From: Vandammella animalimorsus
Lineage (GTDB): Bacteria; Pseudomonadota; Gammaproteobacteria; Burkholderiales; Burkholderiaceae_C
Reading direction: 5' to 3'
Assembly: GCF_002285265.1 (NCBI RefSeq)
Contig: NZ_NSJB01000001.1
Location: 806,001-870,000 of the forward strand
Length of the DNA stretch: 64,000 nucleotides
Below, one piece after another: positions 19,480 to 34,336 of the stretch (position 1 is its first letter; each line of letters starts with the position of its first letter). The notes beneath the pieces are model-generated. The model worked only from the letters and a program-made list of their open reading frames with translations, made no database searches and was not told the origin of the DNA. The translations under genes were made by a program, and so were the position numbers.

Positions 19480-19557
19480 GCGGCTGTAGCTCAGTTGGAT
19501 TAGAGTACTTGGCTACGAACCAAGGGGTCGTGGGTTCGAATCCTGCCAGCCGCGCCA
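19480..19557 (+). tRNA. tRNA-Arg (anticodon ACG), copy 1
   Basis: The acceptor stem gcggctg/cagccgc pairs perfectly, followed by tagctcagttggatta (D arm), an anticodon arm ttggctACGaaccaa, and ggttcgaatcc (T arm). The encoded CCA is at 19555-19557. Length is 78 bases including CCA. Confidence 0.97.
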
Positions 19558-19633: not shown

Positions 19634-19711
19634 GCGGCTGTAGCTCAGTTGGATTAGAGTACTTGGCTACGAACCAAGGGGTCGTGGGTTCGAATCCTGC
19701 CAGCCGCGCCA
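19634..19711 (+). tRNA. tRNA-Arg (anticodon ACG), copy 2
   Basis: Identical to copy 1 over all 78 bases including CCA. The 76-base spacer is unlike the tRNA, so this is a tandem duplication of the gene, or of a tRNA unit with diverged spacer. A hairpin terminator follows at once. Confidence 0.97.
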
Positions 19712-22565: not shown

Positions 22566-23873
22566 ATGGCCCAATCCCCCGAACTCCCCGAGCAACCCGC
22601 CTCGCCCGCCTGGCACCCCAGCACGGCCATCGTGCACCACCCCTACCAGCCCCCGGCTGGGTTTGAGGCCGTCCAGCCCGCAGTGCACAAGGCCTCGACC
22701 ATCTTCTTCCCCAGCATGGCCGCCGTGCGCCAGCGCGACTGGGCCTTCAAAAGCACCTACACCTACGGCCTGCACGGCACGCCCACCAGCTTCACGCTGG
22801 AGGAGCGTCTGGCCAGCCTCGAAGGCGCCCGCTACTGCCTGCTGGCGCCCAGCGGCCTGGCGGCCGTCTCGCTGGTCAACCTGGCCTTGCTGCGCCAGGG
22901 CGACCAGGTGCTGCTGCCCGACAACGTCTACGGCCCCAACAAGGAGCTGGCCCGCCAATGCCTGGCCGAATACGGCATCGACTGGGCCTGCTACGACCCG
23001 CTGGACGCGCAGGATCTGCAGCGCAAGCTCACGCCCCGCACCCGCCTGGTCTGGCTGGAGGCCGCCGGCTCCGTCACCATGGAATTTCCCGATCTGCTCG
23101 GCCTGCTGCAAGTCTGCCGCGCGCACGGCGTGACCACCGCGCTGGACAACACCTGGGGCGCCGGCCTGGCATTTGCGCCATTTGCACTGCCCGGCGCGGA
23201 CGGCAGCACGCTGGGGGTGGACATCAGCGTGCACGCCCTGACCAAATACCCCAACGGCGGCGGCGACGTGCTCATGGGCAGCATCTGCACGCGCGACGCG
23301 CAACTGCTGCAAACCCTCAAGCGCCGCCACATGCACCTGGGCCTGGGCGTGGGCATGAACGACGTCGAATCCGTGCTGCGCGGCCTGCCCAGCATGGCCT
23401 TGCGCTACGCCGCGCAAGACCGCGCCGCCCGCCAGCTGGCCCAATTCCTGGCCCAGCACCCGGCCGTGGCGCGCGTGCTGCACCCGGCCCTGCCCAGCAG
23501 CCCCGGCCATGCCCACTGGCGTCAGATCTGCGCCCCCGACGCGCCGCCAGCCCCGGCCAGCGACGGCCAGCGCGCCGCCGCCCCTATCGCCAGCGAAGGC
23601 GCAGCCGCCGGCATCTTCTCCTTCGAGCCCGCCGCGCACTGGTCCAGCCAACAAATCGACGCCTTCTGCGAAGCCTTGCAGCTTTTCCGCATCGGCTACA
23701 GCTGGGGCGGCCCCATCAGCCTGGTCATGGCCTACGACCTGCGCAACGACCGCGAACTGAGCAGCAGCCACGCCAGGCTGGCCAGCCAGCGCGTCATCCG
23801 CCTGTGCATCGGCCTGGAACACCCCGACGACCTGCAGGCCGACCTGGCACAGGCACTGGCCGCCTGCGGCTGA
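22566..23873 (+). CDS. metC: Cystathionine beta-lyase (MetC-type PLP enzyme)
   Basis: 435 aa, Cys/Met-metabolism PLP family. The PLP lysine is in HALTKYPNGG (Lys227), with LDNTWGAGL before it and TYTYGLHGTPT near the N-terminus. MetC splits cystathionine to homocysteine, pyruvate and ammonia. A ~30-residue Pro/Ala-rich insertion (SPGHAHWRQICAPDAPPAPA..) occurs near residue 320-345. Other gamma-family activities cannot be fully excluded. It lies 58 bases downstream of lysA, same strand. Confidence 0.88.
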   Translation: MAQSPELPEQPASPAWHPSTAIVHHPYQPPAGFEAVQPAVHKASTIFFPSMAAVRQRDWAFKSTYTYGLHGTPTSFTLEERLASLEGARYCLLAPSGLAAVSLVNLALLRQGDQVLLPDNVYGPNKELARQCLAEYGIDWACYDPLDAQDLQRKLTPRTRLVWLEAAGSVTMEFPDLLGLLQVCRAHGVTTALDNTWGAGLAFAPFALPGADGSTLGVDISVHALTKYPNGGGDVLMGSICTRDAQLLQTLKRRHMHLGLGVGMNDVESVLRGLPSMALRYAAQDRAARQLAQFLAQHPAVARVLHPALPSSPGHAHWRQICAPDAPPAPASDGQRAAAPIASEGAAAGIFSFEPAAHWSSQQIDAFCEALQLFRIGYSWGGPISLVMAYDLRNDRELSSSHARLASQRVIRLCIGLEHPDDLQADLAQALAACG

Positions 23874-23974
23874 ACGGCCTGCGCCACGGCCCTGGCCTCT
23901 TCGCCTGTTCGCCCGCCCAGTGCCGCACTGCCACCGCACCGCACCGCATTGCATCCATTGCACTCATTGCACCT

Positions 23975-26878
23975 ATGACTGCTTCCATCACCCCTCACCA
24001 ATCCCAATACTTCGCCTGGCAACTCACCCGCCAGGCCGAAAGCGGCAGCGTGGCTGCGCTGGCCAGCAGCCTGGTGGATGCGCAAGTGGATTTGAACCCG
24101 CACCAGGTCGATGCCGCCTTGTTTGCCTGCCGCAACCCGCTCTCCAAGGGCGTGATCCTGGCCGACGAAGTGGGCCTGGGCAAAACCATCGAGGCCGGCC
24201 TGGTCATCCTGCAACGCTGGGCCGAGCGCCGCCGCCGCATGCTCATCATCGTGCCCGCCAACCTGCGCAAACAGTGGCATCAGGAGTTGCAAGACAAGTT
24301 CGGCCTGCAAAGCCTCATTCTGGAAGCCAAGAGCTACAACACCCTGCACAAGCAAGGCCGCGGCAACCCGTTTGAACACACCGGCGGCCCCATCATCTGT
24401 TCTTACCAGTTTGCCAAGGCCAAGGCCGACGACCTCAAGCGCCTGGCCTGGGACCTGGTGGTGCTGGACGAAGCCCACCGCCTGCGCAACGTCTACAAAA
24501 AAGGCAACGTCATCGCCAGAACGCTCAAAGATGCGCTGGCGCACGTGCCTGCCAAGGTGCTGCTCACCGCCACGCCGCTGCAAAACACCCTGCTGGAGCT
24601 GTACGGCCTGGTCAGCCTGATCGACGAGCGCGTGTTTGGCGACCTGGAGAGCTTTCGCACCCAGTTTGGCGCCAAGGCCACCGAGCAAAGCCTGCACAAG
24701 CTGCGCCAGCGCCTGGCCCCCGTGTGCCAGCGCACCTTGCGCCGCCAGGTGCAGCCTTACGTGTCCTACACCCGGCGCAAGGCCATCGTGCAGGAATTCA
24801 CCCCCTCGGCAGACGAGCAGGCGCTTTCCAGCCAGGTGGCCGATTACCTGCGCCGCCCCAGCCTCAAGGCCCTGCCTGAAGGGCAGCGGCAACTGATCTC
24901 GCTGGTGCTGTGGAAACTGCTGGCCTCCAGCAGCCACGCTATTGCCGGGGCCTTGGGCACCATGGCGCAGCGCCTGCGCACCGTGCTGGCCGAAACCGAC
25001 CCCGGCTGCGATCTGCTCGAAACCCTGGACCAAGACTACGAAAGCCTGGACGAAACCGCCGATGAATGGAGCGATGAGCCAGGCACTGAAAGCGGCCCAA
25101 GCGCCTCCACCCAACCTGGCCAGCCCAGCCAGCCCAACGAATACCAGGCCATCCAGGCCGAAATCGAAGAGCTGGAACACTTCCAGCAACTGGCCACCCG
25201 CATCCGCCAGGATGCCAAAGGCCAGGCCCTGCTCACCGCGCTGGGCAAAGCCTTTGAAGAGCTCGAACGCCTGGGCGCGGCGCAAAAAGCCATCATCTTC
25301 ACCGAATCCAAACGCACGCAGGACTACCTGCTCACCCTGCTGGCCGGCACCCCTTACGCCGGTGAAAACGGCCAGGGCATCGTGCTCTTCAACGGCAGCA
25401 ACAGCGACGCGCAAGCACAAGCTATTTACAAAGACTGGCTCAAGCGCCACGCGGGCACAGACCGCATCACCGGCTCCCAAACCGCCGACACCCGCGCCGC
25501 GCTGGTGGAGCACTTCAAAGAGCGCGGCACCCTCATGATCGCCACCGAAGCCGGCGCCGAGGGCATCAACCTCCAGTTCTGCTCCCTCGTCATCAACTAC
25601 GACCTGCCCTGGAACCCCCAGCGCGTCGAACAGCGCATTGGCCGCTGCCACCGCTACGGGCAAAAGCACGATGTCGTCGTCGTCAACTTCGTGGACCGCA
25701 GCAACGAAGCCGACGCCCGCGTCTACCAACTGCTGGCCGAGAAATTCCAACTGTTTGAAGGCGTCTTCGGCGCCAGCGACGAAGTGCTGGGCGCCATCGG
25801 CAGCGGCGTGGATCTGGAGCGCCGCATTGCCGACATCTACTGCAGCTGCCGCAGCCCGCAAGAAATCCAGGCCGGCTTTGCCAATTTGCAAGAAGAACTG
25901 TCCGGCGAAATCAACCAGGCCATGATGCAAACCCGGCAAACCCTGCTGGAAAACTTCGACGAAGAAGTGCAGCAAAAACTGCGCCTGCGCCACGAAGACA
26001 GCCTCCACACCCGCAACCAGTTCGAACACATGCTGCTCGCCCTCACCCAAAGCGAGCTGGGCCCGCACGCTCGCTTTGACGAACACGGCTTCACCCTGCA
26101 CAGCCTGCCGCCCGGCCTGCACGGCGTGGAGCCCGGCCGCTACGAACTGCCCCGCCAAAGCGGCCACGCCCACCTCTACCGCACCGGCCACCCCTTGGCC
26201 GAACACCTGCTGCAACAAGCCCGCCAGCGCACCAACCCGCCCGCGCGGCTAACGTTCGACTACGTCGCCTACGGCAACAAAATCAGCACCTTGGAGCCCT
26301 ACCGCGGCCAAAGCGGCCAACTCGCCCTCAAACTGCTGCGCGTGCAGGCCCTGGGCCATACTGAAGAACACTGCCTGCTGGCCGCTACCACCGCCAGCGG
26401 CCAGGCCCTGCACCCCGAGGATGCGGAAAAACTCCTGCGCCTGCCCGCCACCACAGCCAGCATCCCCGCCCCCAGCGCCACACCGCCCCTGCTGGACGCA
26501 CTACACACCCGCCGCCAAGCCCTGCTGACAGGCATCCAGCAACGCAACCTTGGCCACTTTGAGCAAGAAGTACAAAAACTCGACGACTGGGCCGACGACC
26601 TCAAACTCGGTCTGGAAGAAGCCATCAAGGAAACCGACCGCCAAATCAAGGAAGTGCGCCGCAGCGCCACCCACGCCTCCACCCTGGAAGAAAAATTGCA
26701 CTGGCAAAAACAGCAACGCCAACTGGAAGCCCAGCGCAGCAAGCAGCGCCGTGAATTGTTTGAACGGCAGGATGTAATTGAGGCGCAACGCAATCGGCTG
26801 ATTGAACAGCTGGAAGGGCAGTTGCTGCAGCGGGTGGAGGAAGAGGAATTGTTTTTGATTGAGTGGACTGTTATTTAG
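23975..26878 (+). CDS. SNF2/RapA-type helicase, first gene of the defence operon
   Basis: 967 aa. Walker A is ADEVGLGKTIEAG (residues 63-75), motif II is DEAH (165-168), motif III LLTATPLQN, and the C-terminal helicase half has ATEAGAEGINLQ and PQRVEQRIGRCHRYGQ. This is the SWI2/SNF2 superfamily 2 translocase layout, closest to RapA-type proteins. An acidic spacer lies at ~365-395 and the last ~130 residues are a charged coiled coil. The start follows a repetitive ccgcacc/cattgca stretch without a ribosome site. The next gene begins nine bases after the stop, its ribosome site overlapping the stop codon. High GC, like the host. Probable role: DNA translocation in restriction. Confidence 0.9.
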   Translation: MTASITPHQSQYFAWQLTRQAESGSVAALASSLVDAQVDLNPHQVDAALFACRNPLSKGVILADEVGLGKTIEAGLVILQRWAERRRRMLIIVPANLRKQWHQELQDKFGLQSLILEAKSYNTLHKQGRGNPFEHTGGPIICSYQFAKAKADDLKRLAWDLVVLDEAHRLRNVYKKGNVIARTLKDALAHVPAKVLLTATPLQNTLLELYGLVSLIDERVFGDLESFRTQFGAKATEQSLHKLRQRLAPVCQRTLRRQVQPYVSYTRRKAIVQEFTPSADEQALSSQVADYLRRPSLKALPEGQRQLISLVLWKLLASSSHAIAGALGTMAQRLRTVLAETDPGCDLLETLDQDYESLDETADEWSDEPGTESGPSASTQPGQPSQPNEYQAIQAEIEELEHFQQLATRIRQDAKGQALLTALGKAFEELERLGAAQKAIIFTESKRTQDYLLTLLAGTPYAGENGQGIVLFNGSNSDAQAQAIYKDWLKRHAGTDRITGSQTADTRAALVEHFKERGTLMIATEAGAEGINLQFCSLVINYDLPWNPQRVEQRIGRCHRYGQKHDVVVVNFVDRSNEADARVYQLLAEKFQLFEGVFGASDEVLGAIGSGVDLERRIADIYCSCRSPQEIQAGFANLQEELSGEINQAMMQTRQTLLENFDEEVQQKLRLRHEDSLHTRNQFEHMLLALTQSELGPHARFDEHGFTLHSLPPGLHGVEPGRYELPRQSGHAHLYRTGHPLAEHLLQQARQRTNPPARLTFDYVAYGNKISTLEPYRGQSGQLALKLLRVQALGHTEEHCLLAATTASGQALHPEDAEKLLRLPATTASIPAPSATPPLLDALHTRRQALLTGIQQRNLGHFEQEVQKLDDWADDLKLGLEEAIKETDRQIKEVRRSATHASTLEEKLHWQKQQRQLEAQRSKQRRELFERQDVIEAQRNRLIEQLEGQLLQRVEEEELFLIEWTVI

Positions 26879-26887
26879 GAGAAAAAG

Positions 26888-28600
26888 ATGTCTGCAACCA
26901 ATTTCAAAACAGAAAACAATACATTCAGAAAGCTGATTGGGAATGGCCTGAGCTATCGGATTCCGCGCTTTCAGCGCGACTACAGCTGGGGCAGTGACGA
27001 ATGGGAGGATTTGTGGTCAGACATCATGGATATTCTTCAAGAAAACAGCCCTTCCCATTACATGGGCTATTTGGTGCTCCAGTCATCGGACGACAAAACC
27101 TTTGACGTCATCGACGGACAGCAGCGCCTGACCACATTGAACCTCATCATCTTGGCCGTTCTGAAGAACATTCAGCGCCTGATTGATGCGGGCAACGAGT
27201 CAGAAGCCAACACGCAAAGGCTGAATCAAATACGCCAAACCTACATAGGCTACCTGGATCCGGTGACCCTGGTCGCCCGGCCAAAATTGACTCTCAACAG
27301 AAACAACAACAGCTATTTTCAATATCACCTGGTGCCGCTGGGGCACTTGCCGCAACGCAGGCTCCGCGCATCCGAGCACCTGCTCAGAAAATCGTTTGAA
27401 TGGTTTGACAGAAAAATTGCAAACCATCTCAAGCAGGAGTCTGGGGGTGAGGGCAGAAGACTAGCGCAGCTGGTAGAAAAAATCAGCGATGCTCTGTTCT
27501 TTACGGTCATCACCGTGACGGATGAGCTCAATGCCTACAAGGTATTCGAAACGCTGAATGCGCGCGGCGTTCGTCTTTCATCCACGGATCTTTTGAAGAA
27601 CTACCTTTTCTCATTGCTGGATCGCGGCGGCGAAACGGATCACGAAATCACAGACCTGGAAAACCGCTGGGAGGCCATTGTTGGGAATTTGCAGTCTGAA
27701 AAATTTCCGGATTTCCTGAGAATTCACTGGAACAGTCGGAACAATTTTGCAAGGCAGGCTGATCTTTTCAAGATCATACGAGCAAAAATTACCGACAGGG
27801 AATCCGTTTTCTGCTTGTTGCGCGGCATGGAGGAAGACCTTGATACCTATCTGGCGCTTTCTTCTCCGGAAGGTTCAAATTGGCCGCAGGAAGATAAAAT
27901 CAATGCCGGAATACTTAAAACATTCCGCGTGCGCCAGCCATTCCCCTTGTTGCTTGCAGCAAAAAGAAGCTTCTCTCCAAACGACTTTTCCGATTTGCTG
28001 CGCGCAACGGTTGTAATCTCGCTGCGATACAACGTGATTGGGACTCAAAGCACGGCAGAGCAAGAGCGCGTTTATAACGCTGCCGCAGAAAAAATCGCCA
28101 ATAATGAATTGCAAAATCTTTCCCCGGCATTGCAAGCGCTGCGCGGCATCTATATTGACGACAAGCGATTTCAGGCGGATTTTTCCGAAAAAACAATTCG
28201 CACAACAGACTCGCGCAACAACAGAGTTGCAAGGTTTATCCTGTGCGCACTGGAGAAGCACCTGTCTGGGCAGGATTACTCTTTCATTAGCGATGCTTTC
28301 AATATTGAACACATTCTTCCTCAAAGTGCGCCGGACGGCTGGGGAGGGTTTAGCAATGAAGAAGCAGACAGCATGATTTACCGCCTTGGGAATATGACTC
28401 TCATGAAAACATCCGAAAACAACGACGCAGGCAACGAAGCCTATCATGCCAAGCGCGAAAAATACCGAAAGAGCGGGTTTGCCATCACTCGAAAATTGGC
28501 TGAAGAATATGCCGAATGGACACCTGCAAATATTGCCGCATGGCAAGCCTGGATGGCCCGGCAAGCCACATCCATATGGCGCATTGCACAACTGAGCTGA
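26888..28600 (+). CDS. DUF262-DUF1524 protein, GmrSD-like nuclease
   Basis: 570 aa. The DUF262 part has IPRFQRDYSWG (25-35) and DGQQRLTTL (76-84), the ParB-like NTP-binding motifs of GmrS, BrxU and SspE. The C-terminal DUF1524 part has FNIEHILPQS (His475) and YRLGNMTLM, the His-Me nuclease motif of GmrD. GmrSD enzymes cut modified phage DNA; this single-chain form is inferred to be a restriction nuclease, but its target is unknown. AGGAG at 26877-26881 overlaps the helicase stop. Base composition is clearly more AT-rich than the genes on both sides, suggesting a separate origin. It ends nine bases before mod. Confidence 0.88.
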   Translation: MSATNFKTENNTFRKLIGNGLSYRIPRFQRDYSWGSDEWEDLWSDIMDILQENSPSHYMGYLVLQSSDDKTFDVIDGQQRLTTLNLIILAVLKNIQRLIDAGNESEANTQRLNQIRQTYIGYLDPVTLVARPKLTLNRNNNSYFQYHLVPLGHLPQRRLRASEHLLRKSFEWFDRKIANHLKQESGGEGRRLAQLVEKISDALFFTVITVTDELNAYKVFETLNARGVRLSSTDLLKNYLFSLLDRGGETDHEITDLENRWEAIVGNLQSEKFPDFLRIHWNSRNNFARQADLFKIIRAKITDRESVFCLLRGMEEDLDTYLALSSPEGSNWPQEDKINAGILKTFRVRQPFPLLLAAKRSFSPNDFSDLLRATVVISLRYNVIGTQSTAEQERVYNAAAEKIANNELQNLSPALQALRGIYIDDKRFQADFSEKTIRTTDSRNNRVARFILCALEKHLSGQDYSFISDAFNIEHILPQSAPDGWGGFSNEEADSMIYRLGNMTLMKTSENNDAGNEAYHAKREKYRKSGFAITRKLAEEYAEWTPANIAAWQAWMARQATSIWRIAQLS

Positions 28601-28609
28601 GCCGTATCC

Positions 28610-30301
28610 ATGACAAAAAAGCAAAAACTCGAACTCACCTGGATTGGCAAGGAGAAGCGGCCCAAGCTGGAGGCGCGGATTTTGCTGGAGGATGGGGAGC
28701 GGTCGTATCACGCTGGGCGGCGGGTGTCGGAGGAGGATGTTTTTGATAACCGGCTGATTTTCGGGGACAACCTGCTGGCCTTGAAGGCGCTGGAGGCGGA
28801 GTTTGCGGGCAAGGTGAAATGTGTGTTCATCGACCCGCCGTACAACACCGGCAGTGCGTTTACCCATTACGACGACGGGCTGGAGCATTCGATTTGGCTG
28901 GGGTTGATGCGCGACCGGCTGGAGATTATCAAGCGTTTGCTTTCGGATGATGGTTCGTTGTGGATCACGATTGATGACAACGAAGCACATTATTTGAAAG
29001 TGCTTTGTGATGAGGTGTTTGGGAGGGGGAATTTTGTGGCGAATGCAATTTGGCAGAAAAAATATGCACCACAAAATGATGCAAAATGGCTGTCTGACTC
29101 TCACGACCATATCCTGATTTATGCCAAGAATAAAATACCATGGAGACCAAACCTACTTGCACGAACAGAAGAGGCGAACAGCTTATATAAAAATCTCGAC
29201 AACGATCCGAGAGGAGCATGGATGTCTGACAATATGTCGGTAAAAACATATTCTTCCACAACGGATTATCCAGTAGTCACTCCATCAGGGAGGGTCGTCA
29301 ATCCACCGGCAAGTCGATGCTGGGCATACACCAAAGAAAAGCTGGAGCAGTTAATTAATGAAAATAGAATTTGGTTCGGCGCAAAAGGCAACGGTGTTCC
29401 ACGAGTAAAGAGATTTCTCAGTGAAGTTCAAAGCGGGATAGTTGCAAAAACAATATGGCTAAGAGAAGAAGTTGGTGACAATCAGGATGCCAAAAAGGAA
29501 GCAAAACAATTTAATGCCAACGATGTTTTTGACACTCCAAAACCCGAAAATCTTTTACAGCGCATTTTGCATTTAGCCACAAACCCCGGCGATCTGGTGC
29601 TCGACTCCTTCGCCGGTTCCGGCACCACGGGCGCCGTGGCGCACAAAATGGGGCGGCGCTGGATCATGGTGGAGTTGGGCGAGCATTGCCATACGCACAT
29701 CATTCCGCGCCTGAAAAAGGTGATTGATGGCGAGGACCCGGGCGGGATTTCCAAGGCGGTGAACTGGCAGGGCGGCGGCGGGTTTCGCTATTACCGGCTG
29801 GCGCCGAGCCTGATTGTCAATGACCGCTGGGGCAATCCGATCATCAACCCGGAATACAACGCGGCGATGCTGGCCGAGGCGCTGGCAAAGCTGGAGGGCT
29901 TTACCTATGCGCCGTCGGAAACGCTGTGGTGGCAGCATGGGCATTCCAGCGAGCAGGATTTTATTTTCGTGACCACGCAAAGCTTGTCTGCTGAGCAGTT
30001 GCAGGCGCTGGCCGATGAGGTGGGCGATGGCCGCAGTTTGCTGATTTGCTGCTCGGCCTTTCGTGGCGTGACGGCGCAGCAGGCGCTTGAGCGTTGGCCA
30101 AATCTGACGCTGAAGAAAATCCCCAAGATGATTTTGGCGCGCTGCGAGTGGGGGCAGGACGATTACAGCCTGAACGTGGCGAATTTGCCGTTGGCCAAGC
30201 CGGATGTGCAAGCGCCTTCACTCCAGCCTTCTCCCAAAGGCAAAGGGAGAAAAGCCGCCGACACGCCGGATCTATTTGGCGATGACGGGGAGCAGGGTTA
30301 A
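28610..30301 (+). CDS. Type III restriction-modification methyltransferase (Mod)
   Basis: 563 aa N6-adenine methyltransferase. Motif IV DPPYNTG (75-81) precedes motif I FAGSGTTGAV (334-343), the beta-class order of type III Mod subunits. The target-recognition part between them (~29035-29580) is markedly more AT-rich than the ends, as if exchanged by recombination. The C-terminus SPKGKGRKAADTPDLFGDD includes a short palindromic insert. No strong ribosome site; translation probably couples to the upstream gene nine bases away. The stop overlaps the RhuM start by one base (TAATG). Confidence 0.93.
   Translation: MTKKQKLELTWIGKEKRPKLEARILLEDGERSYHAGRRVSEEDVFDNRLIFGDNLLALKALEAEFAGKVKCVFIDPPYNTGSAFTHYDDGLEHSIWLGLMRDRLEIIKRLLSDDGSLWITIDDNEAHYLKVLCDEVFGRGNFVANAIWQKKYAPQNDAKWLSDSHDHILIYAKNKIPWRPNLLARTEEANSLYKNLDNDPRGAWMSDNMSVKTYSSTTDYPVVTPSGRVVNPPASRCWAYTKEKLEQLINENRIWFGAKGNGVPRVKRFLSEVQSGIVAKTIWLREEVGDNQDAKKEAKQFNANDVFDTPKPENLLQRILHLATNPGDLVLDSFAGSGTTGAVAHKMGRRWIMVELGEHCHTHIIPRLKKVIDGEDPGGISKAVNWQGGGGFRYYRLAPSLIVNDRWGNPIINPEYNAAMLAEALAKLEGFTYAPSETLWWQHGHSSEQDFIFVTTQSLSAEQLQALADEVGDGRSLLICCSAFRGVTAQQALERWPNLTLKKIPKMILARCEWGQDDYSLNVANLPLAKPDVQAPSLQPSPKGKGRKAADTPDLFGDDGEQG
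30217..30255 (+). repeat. REP-like palindromic segment inside mod
   Basis: The sequence around ccttctcccaaaggcaaagggagaaa is an imperfect palindrome resembling dispersed intergenic repeats of proteobacteria. It is read in frame as Gln-Pro-Ser-Pro-Lys-Gly-Lys-Gly near the end of Mod. Only one copy is in the window, so the repeat class is inferred. Confidence 0.4.
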
Positions 30302-31425
30302 TGGCAAAGCAAGTGCCAGGCGACACACCCGCAAAGGCAGGCGGCTTGGTGCAGCAAGCTGCTGCACCTATGGCAGAAACGGGCGAATTTCTGCTCTACC
30401 AGACCGAGGATGCGCAGACGCGGGTACAGGTGCGCCTTCAGGATGGCGGCCTCTGGCTGACCCAGGCGCAGCTGGCCGAGCTGTACCAGTGCTCGCCACA
30501 AAACATTACCCAGCACATCCGCGCCATCTACCAGACGGGGGAGCTACAGGAAGCGGCAACTTGTAAGCCGTACTTACAGGTTCGGCTGGAGCGTGGGCGG
30601 CAGGTCAACCGCAGCCTCAAGCATTACAGCCTGGAGGTGGTGCTGGCAGTGGGCTACCGGGCCAAGTCGCACCGGGGTACACAATTCCGCCGCTGGGCCA
30701 CGGAGCAGCTCAAGACCTATCTGCACAAGGGTGTACTGCTGGATGACGATCGGTTCAAGCGGGGCGAGGATGCGGAGTATTTCGAAGAGCTGCTGGCACG
30801 CATCCGCGATATTCGCTCGTCGGAAAAGGTGTTCTGGCGCAAGGTGCTGGACATCTACGCCACCAGCATCGATTACGACCCGCACACGGAAATCGCACGG
30901 CAGTTCTTTGCCACGGTGCAAAACAAGATGCACTGGGCAGCGCATGGTCATACCGCCGCAGAGCTGATCGTGGCGCGGGTAGACGCGCAAGCCCCTAACG
31001 TGGGGTTGACGAATTGGCCGGGCGCCAGCAAAGGGGCGCCCGTGCGCAAAGCGGATGTCGGCATTGCCAAGAACTACCTCAATGCCGAAGAGTTGGACAC
31101 GCTCAATCGCATCGTCACGGCCTATATCGAGGTGGCGGAGCTGCAAGCCCAGGCGCATCAACCGATGACGATGCGCGACTGGGCGCAGGAGCTGGACAAC
31201 TTCTTGCGCATGACACGAAAAGACATCCTGACCCATGCGGGCAAGGTGTCGGCCAAGACTGCGCTTGCCAAGGCGGAGACGGCTTATGCCCAATACCGGG
31301 CTCGTGTGCGCAATTTGCTATCGCCAGTGGAAAAAGACTTTGAGGCCGCTCTTGCGCAACCGGTCAAGCAGTTGCAAAAAAGCCGGAAGTCGCTGCCAAA
31401 GAAGAAAAAAGGGGAACAGACTTGA
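30301..31425 (+). CDS. RhuM-family protein within the type III RM operon
   Basis: 374 aa. FLLYQTEDAQTRVQVRLQDGGLWLTQAQLAELY and NITQHIRAIYQTGEL, then SYLEVVLAVGYR-like wording (LKHYSLEVVLAVGYRAKSHRG), identify the RhuM family; a helix-turn-helix is likely at ~52-82. The last 20 residues are strongly basic. RhuM proteins are named after a Salmonella island gene and have no established biochemical role. The gene overlaps mod by one base and res by four, so it is built into the operon. A DNA-binding or regulatory job is inferred only. Confidence 0.85.
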   Translation: MAKQVPGDTPAKAGGLVQQAAAPMAETGEFLLYQTEDAQTRVQVRLQDGGLWLTQAQLAELYQCSPQNITQHIRAIYQTGELQEAATCKPYLQVRLERGRQVNRSLKHYSLEVVLAVGYRAKSHRGTQFRRWATEQLKTYLHKGVLLDDDRFKRGEDAEYFEELLARIRDIRSSEKVFWRKVLDIYATSIDYDPHTEIARQFFATVQNKMHWAAHGHTAAELIVARVDAQAPNVGLTNWPGASKGAPVRKADVGIAKNYLNAEELDTLNRIVTAYIEVAELQAQAHQPMTMRDWAQELDNFLRMTRKDILTHAGKVSAKTALAKAETAYAQYRARVRNLLSPVEKDFEAALAQPVKQLQKSRKSLPKKKKGEQT

Positions 31426-34199
31426 ACACCCGCGTACAACACCATGTCAACGGGCGGCTGTCGCTGCGCGCGCCGCAGGCGGAATCACTGGCAAAGCTGA
31501 TTCAGGCCATTGAGGCCGCGCCGGAAATGCTGACGCATGAACGGGATGTGGCCGCCATTTTGAGCAGTCTGAAGGCGCAGTTTGCGACGCTGGAAGACTT
31601 TGAGCGCGACTTCCCTTCGCTGTGCTTTGCGCTGGCGACCGGGGTGGGCAAGACGCGGCTGATGGGGGCGTTTATCGCCTATCTGCATCTGGCGCATGGC
31701 ATCCGCAATTTTTTCGTACTGGCGCCCAATCTGACCATTTACAACAAGCTGATTGCCGACTTCACGCCCAACACGCCCAAGTACGTGTTCAAGGGCATTG
31801 CCGAGTTTGCGCAGCAGCCGCCCCTCATCATCACCGGCGACAACTACGAGCAAAGCGGCGCGGCGGTGGAGGTGCAGCCGCAGGGGCTGGGCATGGGCTT
31901 TGTGCAGGACGTGCGCATCAACATCTTCAATATCAGCAAGATCAATTCCGAGGTGCGCGGCGGCAAGGAGCCGCGCATCAAGCGCATGCGCGAGGTGCTG
32001 GGCGAGAGCTATTTCAACCACCTGGCGAATCTGCCGGATCTGGTGCTGCTGATGGACGAATCGCACCGTTATCGCGCCCAGGCGGGGATGCGGGCGATCA
32101 ATGAATTGCAGCCGCTGTTCGGCCTGGAGCTGACAGCCACGCCGTTTGTGGAGAGCAGCCGCGGGCCGGTGGCGTTCAAGAACGTGGTGATGGATTACCC
32201 GCTGGCGCGGGCGCTGGAAGATGGTTTTGTCAAGGAGCCGGCCGTGGTGACGCAGCGCGGCTTTGATGCCAGCGCGCACATGCCGCAGGAGCTGGAAAAA
32301 ATCAAGCTCGAAGACGGCGTGCGCCTGCACGAGGCCACCAAGGTGGAGCTGCTGACCTATGCGCGCGAGAACGGGGTGCAGCCGGTCAAGCCCTTCATGC
32401 TAGTGATTGCGCGCGACACCACGCATGCCGCCGACTTGCTGGCCTTGCTGGAGTCGCCCGCGTTTTACGAAGGGCGCTACGCGGGCAAGGTGATTCAGGT
32501 TGATTCCAGCAAAAGCGGCAAGGACGAGGAGCAGATGATTGCGCGCCTCTTGGCGGTGGAGAGCGTGGATGAACCGACCGAGATCGTGATCCACGTCAAC
32601 ATGCTCAAAGAAGGCTGGGACGTGACCAACCTCTACACCATCGTGCCGCTGCGCGCGGCCAACGCACGCACACTGATCGAGCAAAGCATCGGGCGCGGCC
32701 TGCGCCTGCCCTATGGCAAGCGCACCGGCGTGGCGGCGGTGGACAGGCTCAACATCGTGGCGCACGAGCGGTTTCAGGAAATCGTGGACGAGGCCAACCG
32801 GGGCGATTCGCCCATTCGCCTGAAGCAAGTCATTCTGGAAGCGCCGCAGGCGGATGAGAAAAAGGTGAGCGTGCAGGTTAGCGCGGGCGTGCATGCGCGC
32901 CTGGGATTGGAAAGCGCACCGGAAATCGTCCAGGTTCCGGGTAGCGACGCTCTCGCCCCGCCTGCACCGGCGTTTGCCAGCGAAGCGGAAAAACAGGCCG
33001 CGCGCGCGGTGCTGGACGTGATCGGCCAGTACGAAACCCGGCCTGATGTGGCCCCCACCCGCAGCGCGCTGCTGCGCCCCGAAGTGCAGCAGGCCATCGC
33101 CGCCGAGGTGGCCGAACGTCTGCGACCCGCGCAGGGCAGCCTGGTGGCCGGTGCTGATGAAGCTGTGTCTGCCGTGGTTGCCAAGACGTTGGAGGCCGTG
33201 GTGCAGCAAAGCATCGACATCCCGCGCATCACTGTGGTACCCAAGGGCGAGGTGACAACGGGCTTTCGCCCCTTCACGCTGGATGTGAGCGGGCTGCATT
33301 TGCAGCCGGGCACGCGCGAGATCGTGGGGCAGATGCTGCACAGCAATGCGCAGTTCAGCCTGGCGGCAGAGATTGGCCTGAAGGAGCAGCGCGCCGAGGA
33401 CTATATCGTCCACGCGCTGCTGGACTTTGACGACATCGACTACTTCACCCAGTCCGAGCTGCTGTACGACCTGGCGGGGCAGATGGTGCGGCACTTGCGC
33501 AGCTATCTGGTGGACGAGGCCGATGTCATCAACGTGCTGGATCGTGACCGCCGCCTGATTGCGCGTGAAATCCATGCGCAGATGCAAGCGCATTTCTATG
33601 AGGAGGCTGCGGATTTCGAGGTGCGCATCAGCCGCGGCTTCACCCAGCTCAAGCCCTGCCAGTACACCGTGGCCGCGGGCGAGGCCGCGCGCCACTATCG
33701 CGAGACGCTGGCCGAGCCTGGCCGCATCAAGTCCCTGCTGTTTGGCGGCTTTGCGCGCTGCCTGTACCCCTTGCAGAAATTCGACTCGGACACCGAGCGG
33801 CGCTTTGCCATCCTCCTGGAGCGCGATGCGCTCAAGTGGTTCAAGCCCGCCAAGGGGCAGTTCCAGATCTACTACAAGCTCGGCAGCGAGCAGCCCGAAT
33901 ACGTGCCCGACTTCGTGGCCGAAATGCAGGACTGCATCCTGATGGTGGAAACCAAGGCACACAACGACATCGCCAGCGCCGAAGTGCAGGCCAAGGCGCA
34001 GGCCGCCGCCGAGTGGTGTCAGCACGCCAGCGCCTACAGTGCCCGCGTGGGTGGCAAGCCCTGGCGCTATGTGCTGGTGCCGCATGACGAGGTGCAGGAG
34101 TCGAAACGGCTGGCGGATTTTTTGCGCTTTGAGCAAAAGCGCAATGCCCCCGACAAAGCCATTGCATCCAAGAGATTGGCTGCCACACCCGAAGGCTGA
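31422..34199 (+). CDS. Type III restriction enzyme, Res subunit
   Basis: 925 aa. The helicase part has ATGVGKTRL (residues 72-80), LLMDESHRYR (DESH at 212-215), LTATPF and the C-terminal IEQSIGRGLRLP. The nuclease is at the end: YVPDFVAE (Asp830) and VETK (Glu843, Lys845), a PD-ExK site. With Mod this should give an ATP-dependent type III restriction enzyme. The start is a TTG overlapping the RhuM stop (TTGA), with GGGGA just upstream, so translation depends on coupling. Last gene of the operon; no clear terminator follows. Confidence 0.92.
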   Translation: MNTRVQHHVNGRLSLRAPQAESLAKLIQAIEAAPEMLTHERDVAAILSSLKAQFATLEDFERDFPSLCFALATGVGKTRLMGAFIAYLHLAHGIRNFFVLAPNLTIYNKLIADFTPNTPKYVFKGIAEFAQQPPLIITGDNYEQSGAAVEVQPQGLGMGFVQDVRINIFNISKINSEVRGGKEPRIKRMREVLGESYFNHLANLPDLVLLMDESHRYRAQAGMRAINELQPLFGLELTATPFVESSRGPVAFKNVVMDYPLARALEDGFVKEPAVVTQRGFDASAHMPQELEKIKLEDGVRLHEATKVELLTYARENGVQPVKPFMLVIARDTTHAADLLALLESPAFYEGRYAGKVIQVDSSKSGKDEEQMIARLLAVESVDEPTEIVIHVNMLKEGWDVTNLYTIVPLRAANARTLIEQSIGRGLRLPYGKRTGVAAVDRLNIVAHERFQEIVDEANRGDSPIRLKQVILEAPQADEKKVSVQVSAGVHARLGLESAPEIVQVPGSDALAPPAPAFASEAEKQAARAVLDVIGQYETRPDVAPTRSALLRPEVQQAIAAEVAERLRPAQGSLVAGADEAVSAVVAKTLEAVVQQSIDIPRITVVPKGEVTTGFRPFTLDVSGLHLQPGTREIVGQMLHSNAQFSLAAEIGLKEQRAEDYIVHALLDFDDIDYFTQSELLYDLAGQMVRHLRSYLVDEADVINVLDRDRRLIAREIHAQMQAHFYEEAADFEVRISRGFTQLKPCQYTVAAGEAARHYRETLAEPGRIKSLLFGGFARCLYPLQKFDSDTERRFAILLERDALKWFKPAKGQFQIYYKLGSEQPEYVPDFVAEMQDCILMVETKAHNDIASAEVQAKAQAAAEWCQHASAYSARVGGKPWRYVLVPHDEVQESKRLADFLRFEQKRNAPDKAIASKRLAATPEG

Positions 34200-34336
34200 A
34201 GGGACGTTGTCACAAGAAAAATTCTGCTCCCTCACAGTCAGCGAGTCCATCCAGGATGCTGAAATTTGAGAACAGCAAAAATCTGGTTCGCTACACTTAA
34301 CCGCCCGCCATGGTGGCCATTACCAGGAGTGATTGC

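Follow-up and report, generated by a model that had tools for sequence, protein, structure and literature searches.

An ATPase-containing type III restriction-modification operon that probably carries two exchangeable defence genes in Vandammella animalimorsus

Described systems closest to the operon

Type III restriction-modification (RM) systems act through Mod and Res subunits: one DNA strand is methylated, and once ATP has triggered sliding, the DNA is cut between unmethylated sites in head-to-head orientation. EcoP1I and EcoP15I are two-gene systems of this type that are not known to include an SNF2 gene or any cargo. Type III systems with an additional ATPase gene located 5' of mod, namely, Eco86II of Escherichia coli NCTC86 and BspHIV of Acinetobacter sp. 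H, were described in 2021 (PMC8259958). Here we analyze a related operon in a stretch of 64,000 nucleotides from Vandammella animalimorsus (assembly GCF_002285265.1, contig NZ_NSJB01000001.1, positions 806,001 to 870,000; hereinafter, the window), in which genes for an SNF2/RapA-like ATPase, a DUF262-DUF1524 nuclease, Mod, RhuM, and Res follow each other on the same strand. Judging from sequence comparison, the operon probably belongs to the Eco86II/BspHIV group, as a type III RM system of three genes including an ATPase (SNF2-Mod-Res), with two exchangeable defence genes as cargo; the locus would thus be a modular carrier and not a new machine made of five parts. We favour exchangeable cargo because the SNF2-Mod-Res frame recurs and its genes co-diverge, while the slots on either side of mod and the central part of Mod itself change.

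According to the 2021 report, methylation does not require the Eco86II ATPase, mass spectrometry failed to detect the protein in a partially purified active fraction, and no role was assigned to it; the text of the paper nowhere uses the word 'embedded', and no embedded genes are mentioned in the parts consulted (PMC8259958). The embedding of defence genes in RM operons is already known in general, with two direct analogies. As presented in the accessible text, the GmrSD-like TgvAB system is nested in a type I RM system of VPI-2, so that, as in the window, GmrSD-type restriction lies inside an RM operon and modified and unmodified phage DNA are jointly covered, but the host operon is type I and the GmrSD system consists of two proteins (PMC11411939). 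Similarly, DarTG2 is located inside a type I RM system, between hsdS and hsdR, that is, as cargo within an RM operon considered a potential recombination hotspot; unlike the case analyzed here, the RM system is type I and the cargo is a toxin-antitoxin module (PMC12255303, accessible part).

The five-gene operon

The operon comprises five open reading frames (ORFs) on the + strand at 23975..34199, with spacings of 9, 9, -1, and -4 bases. Within the frame formed by SNF2, mod, and res, slot A is the interval between SNF2 and mod, and slot B is the interval between mod and res:

23975..26878, + strand: SNF2/RapA-like ATPase, 967 amino acids (aa); Pfam SNF2-rel_dom and Helicase_C
26888..28600, + strand: DUF262-DUF1524 GmrSD-like nuclease, 570 aa, in slot A; GmrSD_N and GmrSD_C; PADLOC HEC-06
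28610..30301, + strand: Mod, type III beta-class methyltransferase subunit, 563 aa; N6_N4_Mtase; PADLOC MTase_III, 751 bits
29045..29584, + strand: centre of Mod, aa 146-325, low identity; probable target recognition domain and third exchangeable part
30301..31425, + strand: RhuM, 374 aa, in slot B; Virulence_RhuM, E 1.9e-107; PADLOC PDC-S05, 453 bits
31422..34199, + strand: Res, type III restriction subunit, 925 aa, TTG start; ResIII; PADLOC REase_III, 691 bits

An earlier reading made from the letters alone (the sequence-only reading) had described five joined genes with two gaps of 9 bases and overlaps of 1 and 4 bases, which is exact, and the Pfam and PADLOC matches bear out its type III RM core with a second translocase and a GmrSD-like nuclease. 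It had also stated that no named system with this set was known; this does not stand, given that the ATPase-Mod-Res frame is published (PMC8259958) and the cargo corresponds to the known candidates HEC-06 and PDC-S05. With PADLOC, a tool of the kind that it suggested, the cargo and Mod and Res matched known entries, and the best match of SNF2 was DrmD (651 bits; 658 bits with NCBIfam DrmD_b, for which the cut-off is 950).

Pattern searches recovered the expected motifs in each enzyme: Walker A GLGKT, DEAH, and motif VI QRIGRCHR in SNF2; DPPY at aa 75 and FAGSG at aa 334 in Mod; GVGKT, DESH, and QSIGRGLR in Res, together with a C-terminal PD-ExK-like PD...ETK; and DGQQR and the HNH-like EHILP in the DUF262 protein. 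No nuclease family is present among the Pfam matches of SNF2. In searches of PDB, Mod matched 6k0w and EcoP15I Mod (4zcf), Res matched EcoP15I Res (4zcf_C, E 8.8e-6, covering part of the motor), the best match of SNF2 was RapA, and the DUF262 protein matched 9jfl and SspE; RhuM produced a single match at E 0.075 and none below that value. Thus, Mod and Res are homologous to characterised type III subunits, as indicated by both PADLOC and the EcoP15I structures, and the motor, nuclease, and methyltransferase motifs of EcoP1I and EcoP15I are represented in the window.

The similarity to the Eco86II/BspHIV group extends to gene order. In the NCTC86 record NZ_LT601384.1, we identified an SNF2 (963 aa)-Mod-Res locus with both slots empty and with Mod and Res assigned to classes Modb and Resb by hidden Markov models (HMMs; see below); we infer that this locus is Eco86II. 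In both cases, an SNF2-type ATPase gene lies 5' of mod, followed by res on one strand, and the two ATPases are homologous over their whole length, with 44% identity over 984 aligned columns. Leaving slot A aside, the window contains a helicase-like ATPase without an endonuclease motif directly 5' of mod-res, a beta-class Mod with DPPY and FxGxG, and a Res with Walker A, DExH, and PD-ExK. The window differs from the NCTC86 locus in that its Mod and Res belong to class a rather than class b, and in that two cargo genes lie inside it.

Recurrence of the SNF2-Mod-Res frame

Within the order, 32 of 399 genomes contain close kin of the window SNF2 (E <= 1e-100). Scanning named genomes with the family alignment confirmed at least 564 stretches with SNF2 kin out of 594 candidates listed; the best 80 of these, which bear names from many phyla, were combined with the 32 into a set of 112 loci, 81 of which have at least 8 kb of DNA downstream of SNF2. 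The loci were thus selected by similarity of SNF2, not at random, and at least one genome is present twice (L054 and L164). We detected Mod and Res with our own HMMs, at thresholds of 60 and 25 bits. Among the 81 loci, Mod lies on the same strand downstream of SNF2 in 69, and Mod is followed by Res in 68; in L176, the stretch contains Mod without a Res. The remaining 12 include broken or incomplete frames (L044, L049, L058, and L060), more distant myxobacterial SNF2 genes (L173, L174, and L177), an SNF2 gene followed by an SMC-like gene and a transposase (L188), two loci in which Mod-Res is located in front of SNF2 (L154 and L168), as well as L143 and L178. In these two rotated loci, SNF2 remains linked, but behind Res: Lonepinella koalarum (L154:2403-12874) has Mod-(X)-Res-SNF2, and Schaalia odontolytica (L168:5127-12853) has the same arrangement without X.

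In the reverse direction, 14 of the 20 genomes of the order with a window-type Res have SNF2 in the frame, a remnant of SNF2 is present in one more (G011), and in two (G091 and G190) the contig ends inside mod. SNF2 kin with an at least partial DNA match occur in 248 of 5426 E. coli genomes, covering at least 80% of the query in 29, and in 46 plasmid records, 28 of which are predicted to be conjugative. The locus of E. coli O8:H28 BMH-17-0027 (L223:9504-20250) is a class-a frame in which slot A holds a pair of genes for an AAA ATPase and an S8 peptidase; its Mod and Res are 62% and 44% identical, respectively, to those of the window.

Contents of the two slots

Slot occupancy was counted from same-strand ORFs of at least 150 aa, leaving out the duplicate L164 and including at least one transposase. 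Of the 86 loci with SNF2 and Mod, 55 have a filled slot A (42 of 51 in class a, 7 of 23 in class b, and 6 of 12 in class c); for slot B, the count is 26 of 75 (11 of 44, 8 of 19, and 7 of 12, respectively). By Pfam or similarity, slot A houses AIPR, SMC/AAA-type ATPases, AAA_21, schlafen-AlbA/HATPase, SIR2, PLDc, OLD-TOPRIM, DUF2130, KilA-N/Bro-N, Fic, TIR plus AAA, and GmrSD types, and slot B houses RhuM (9 loci, including the window), the YhcG/DUF1016 nuclease, Abi_2, DUF3800, AAA_21, and some unlabelled proteins. Altogether, the slots contain 136 cargo ORFs of at least 80 aa; for 78 of them, similarity to annotated ORFs provided a label, and the other 58 carry none. A mosaic with a slot of changing content, as proposed by the sequence-only reading, is therefore borne out by the many alternatives; its mention of DUF4391 in slot A is not confirmed, this family being absent from the 25 of 50 slot A Pfam families that were listed, which include every family with at least 2 of the 87 proteins, so that single cases are possible.

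PADLOC matches among the 87 slot A proteins include AbiU (10), AriA (7), mad3 (6), HEC-01A/B (5), PDC-M07A (5), and Dsr2 (3). The commonest PADLOC family accounts for 10 of 87 proteins in slot A and for 3 of 106 in the flanks (13 of 119 flank proteins being left out), and no enrichment is claimed. A recurrent overlap of 16 bases between SNF2 and the next ORF was not used in the analysis and is probably an artefact of taking the first start codon.

The DUF262 gene of the window looks like cargo, judging from the distribution of its relatives. The protein matches the HEC-06 profile with 783 bits over almost its entire length (residues 1-567 of 570; profile positions 1-567 of 569), with DUF262 and DUF1524 in a single chain as in HEC-06. 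HEC-06 is said to stand for Hma-embedded candidate 6 and to originate from the 'guilt-by-embedding' study of Payne in 2024; the name thus refers to embedding in Hma, unlike the window copy, which is embedded in a type III frame. The accessible text of papers citing HEC-06 describes it as antiviral and working independently (PMC12988326, PMC11411939). Close relatives of the window protein (E <= 1e-100) were found in 10 of the 399 genomes, and only the window and L043 have them in the frame; these two are also the only ones among the 86 loci with this subfamily in slot A. In seven of the other eight, the upstream DNA spans 3.5 kb or more and contains no frame-type SNF2 gene, and for L106 no judgement can be made on SNF2, the contig ending 0.46 kb upstream; downstream, the stretches of L101 and L102 end after 0.2 and 0.4 kb.

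A DUF262 protein is also encoded in slot B of a class-c frame on the conjugative Rhizobium plasmid p7 (L217:16899-18170), so that DUF262 proteins use both slots. In Thiomicrospira microaerophila (L178:9932-22834), an SNF2 gene of the frame family, a HEC-06-like DUF262 gene (918 bits to our DUF262 HMM), a gene for a 1759-aa DEAD/MZB (YprA/MrfA-like) helicase, and a second SNF2 gene lie in a row, the HEC-06-like gene between SNF2 and the DEAD/MZB helicase; no Mod or Res was found in this stretch, and the row is possibly a further hybrid defence frame.

Co-divergence and exchange

Mod and Res fall into three classes, which agree in all 76 loci where both are present: 44 a-a, 20 b-b (including the duplicate L164), and 12 c-c. 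The classes were assigned by the best HMM, and the three to five loci from which the class b and class c HMMs were built match by construction. When the class label is traced on a FastTree tree of SNF2 (81 rows with Mod and an SNF2 of at least 800 aa, a set that differs from the 81 loci chosen by downstream length), it changes 9 times compared with a shuffled mean of 28.7, so Mod-Res pairs were exchanged several times under one SNF2 family. As one example, in the pair of L052 (class c) and L054 (class b), the SNF2 genes share 79% DNA identity and nothing else matches at E 1e-10.

Within classes, the frame genes co-diverge. Pairwise distances correlate for SNF2-Res, Mod-Res, and SNF2-Mod with r = 0.87, 0.75, and 0.60 in class a (35 loci), 0.66, 0.86, and 0.51 in class b (16 loci), and 0.96, 0.90, and 0.88 in class c (9 loci); the observed r was reached in 0 of 2000 permutations in every case except class-b SNF2-Mod (1 of 2000). 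Cargo distances correlate with those of SNF2 with r = 0.35 for AIPR (n=9), 0.16 for SMC-like proteins (n=6), 0.20 for AAA_21 (n=10), and 0.52 for YhcG (n=6). Where both Res and SNF2 are present in the loci of the cargo sets, their r is 0.67-0.94 (n 5-8), the value of 0.67 in the SMC-like set not exceeding chance (183 of 2000 permutations). Because distances of frame genes correlate more than those of most cargo, we conclude from these comparisons that the frame moves as a unit, apparently more so than most of the tested cargo, with RhuM and AlbA intermediate.

The central part of Mod is a third exchangeable element. In the 35 class-a loci, the mean identity of aa 146-325 is 0.28, compared with 0.71 and 0.72 on either side, and the distances of this part correlate weakly with those of SNF2 (r = 0.16, with 47 of 1000 permutations as high), whereas the C-terminal tail of Mod correlates with Res at r = 0.90. 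The target recognition domain probably maps to aa 146-325, a placement that draws on the general anatomy of type III enzymes, with recognition in the centre of Mod. An exchange of this kind is apparent between L035 and the locus of Mesopusillimonas faecipullorum (L147): SNF2, the SIR2 cargo, and Res are 97%, 92%, and 95% identical, and both ends of Mod are conserved, but columns 151-330 retain only 5 to 15 identities per 30 columns, and slot B is occupied by YhcG in one locus but by RhuM in the other, two proteins that blastp does not match to each other. DNA similarity is also lost in the middle of mod in five other pairs (L041/L042, L109/L034, L110/L034, L045/L046, and L057/L059). Two of these loci, L045:6421-16525 and L046:6871-13546, are close class-c copies, with about 93% DNA identity in the SNF2 region; the ORFs that separate Mod from Res differ between them, and in L046 Res is apparently broken into pieces.

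Judged against the open-licence literature, the two-slot organisation, the co-divergence of SNF2 and Res, and the association of one SNF2 family with three Mod-Res classes are probably new. A widespread type III RM frame with two fixed docking places beside a swappable recognition domain defines where to look for new defence genes, provides a natural swap pair for comparison, and raises the question of the role of the conserved ATPase gene described in 2021.

Proposed mechanism and alternative explanations

If the operon is a type III system with exchangeable cargo, the central recognition domain of Mod would select a short asymmetric site, of which Mod would methylate one strand, and Mod-Res complexes on two unmethylated head-to-head sites would slide using ATP, with Res cutting incoming DNA beside the site. 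SNF2 would be an accessory double-stranded DNA motor that might, for example, clear bound proteins from the sliding path or gate Res; this helper role is proposed because the published ATPase is dispensable for methylation and was undetected in the active in vitro fraction. That SNF2 assists restriction in cells we regard as an evenly balanced proposition; less likely, it is a passenger, or it could have some other regulatory role. The DUF262-DUF1524 protein would be a separate NTP-driven nuclease, probably attacking modified phage DNA that the RM core could not cut, and RhuM a second separate defence gene or effector. Embedding would provide the cargo with the transcription of the frame and with joint transfer.

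Several observations weigh against this interpretation. The group to which we assign the operon is characterised by N4-methylcytosine in an asymmetric site, and the window Mod is only 27% identical to the NCTC86 Mod over 376 aa, with no significant blastp match between the Res proteins; being so distant, the window proteins may differ in biochemistry. The distances of RhuM (r 0.62, n=9) and AlbA (r 0.71, n=11) also track those of SNF2, so some cargo may stay for a long time or be co-adapted. Joint transfer alone can yield co-divergence. Finally, some loci have SNF2 but no Mod-Res, and 3 of the 20 Res genomes have no SNF2 beside Res, one with an intact Mod-Res (G193) and two with a broken one (G220 and G358).

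The alternative that survives best, although we consider it unlikely, is that SNF2, too, is merely embedded, as a defence helicase that acts on its own and lies ahead of a conventional type III system of two genes. The accessible data on Eco86II, with an ATPase neither needed for methylation nor detected in the active fraction (PMC8259958), would fit a passenger, as would the occurrence of one SNF2 family in front of three divergent Mod-Res classes and the T. microaerophila row, where SNF2 accompanies a HEC-06-like gene and a YprA-like helicase without mod-res. A passenger is not expected, however, to show linkage in fixed order in 68 of 81 loci, plus two rotated ones, or a correlation with Res (r = 0.87 in class a) that exceeds that of every tested cargo with SNF2 (0.16-0.71).

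Also unlikely is the possibility that the SNF2 ATPase, as the constant part, is a hub that pairs with three divergent Mod-Res cassettes and with interchangeable slot A and slot B effectors and may couple them, such that the translocase could hand a restriction event that has stalled or failed, as on modified phage DNA, to the embedded effector. If true, this would amount to a programmable defence in two stages, with three positions for plug-in parts, namely, the recognition domain, slot A, and slot B.

The sequence-only reading expected the five genes to act as one unit, and a single complex or pathway of SNF2, the GmrSD-like nuclease, Mod, RhuM, and Res could account for the tight spacing, for the single insertion or loss described below, and for the low GC content shared by DUF262 and the first 380 mod codons, perhaps due to joint arrival. 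We find this improbable, and a complex shared by all five proteins unlikely. The genome search for the five families in this order, proposed by the same reading, found the full set once among the 86 frame loci, in the window itself; both slots vary and hold many unrelated families, the frame co-diverges while DUF262 looks like cargo, and HEC-06 is reported, in the accessible text, to work independently (PMC11411939). Rare linkage of the helicase and DUF262 genes to mod-res, which would have spoken against that reading, is not seen for the helicase (68 of 81) but is for DUF262, with 2 of 10 relatives in the frame, 7 without SNF2 upstream, and 1 that cannot be judged. A DISARM-like system with SNF2 as DrmD is highly improbable: DrmD is indeed the best PADLOC and NCBIfam match of SNF2, but its 658 bits fall short of the equivalog cut-off of 950, the methyltransferase and the nuclease of the operon correspond to type III Mod and Res, and no match to the YprA/MZB partner family PF09369 exists in the whole genome (control positive in 8 of 14 genomes; the DrmA, DrmB, and DrmC models were not searched).

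Insertion site and base composition

The operon and its short flanks form a presence/absence block, and a second block is defined by base composition:

23870..34314: presence/absence block, operon with short flanks; replaced by 138 bp in the sister genome G405 (L202)
26888..29749: low-GC block, DUF262 gene and Mod aa 1-380 (GC 0.492 and 0.495)

In G405, only 138 bp separate a metC-like gene from the gene downstream of the block, and the flanks on the sides of window positions 23869 and 34315 are 92.7% and 88.7% identical; the five-gene block thus represents one insertion or loss. The block ends are approximate to about 30 bp, finer alignment extending weak similarity slightly on both sides. 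Of 11 relatives compared, one has the empty site; the remaining 10 are uninformative, as they match on the upstream side only or end there. By eye, no clear target duplication is present at the empty site, and no repeat search was run. Two tandem tRNA-Arg (acg) genes (19480-19557 and 19634-19711) are located about 4.3 kb upstream, with no link to the insertion seen.

The base composition of the operon is mosaic: GC content is 63.2% in SNF2, 63.1% in Res, 59.9% in RhuM, and 49.2% in DUF262, and within Mod it is 49.5% for residues 1-380 and 60.0% for the C-terminal part. Because both are low in GC, the DUF262 gene and the first 380 codons of mod may have arrived together.

Other defence systems and the helix-turn-helix gene

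Other defence systems with related components were considered and rejected. For BREX, PglZ (PF08665) has no match in the same genome (control positive in 2 of 14 genomes), and the same holds for HmaC (DUF499, PF04465) of Hma (control positive in 1 of 14). The ARMADA/YprA systems, as described in the accessible part of PMC12458937, were rejected as well. MADS has nothing in common with the locus beyond the name of a helix-turn-helix (HTH) gene in relatives, the other MADS genes not having been searched, and within 500 bp upstream of the window SNF2 no MAD1-type HTH gene was detected.

Several relatives of the window locus, 14 of the 112 by one search, have a small HTH gene before or overlapping SNF2. 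In enterobacterial copies, it overlaps the SNF2 start (L213:6232-6432, L218:16001-16201, and L219:16001-16201). RefSeq names the E. coli gene MAD1, with no other MADS gene annotated in the stretches opened; the HTH gene at the SNF2 start could encode a controller protein.

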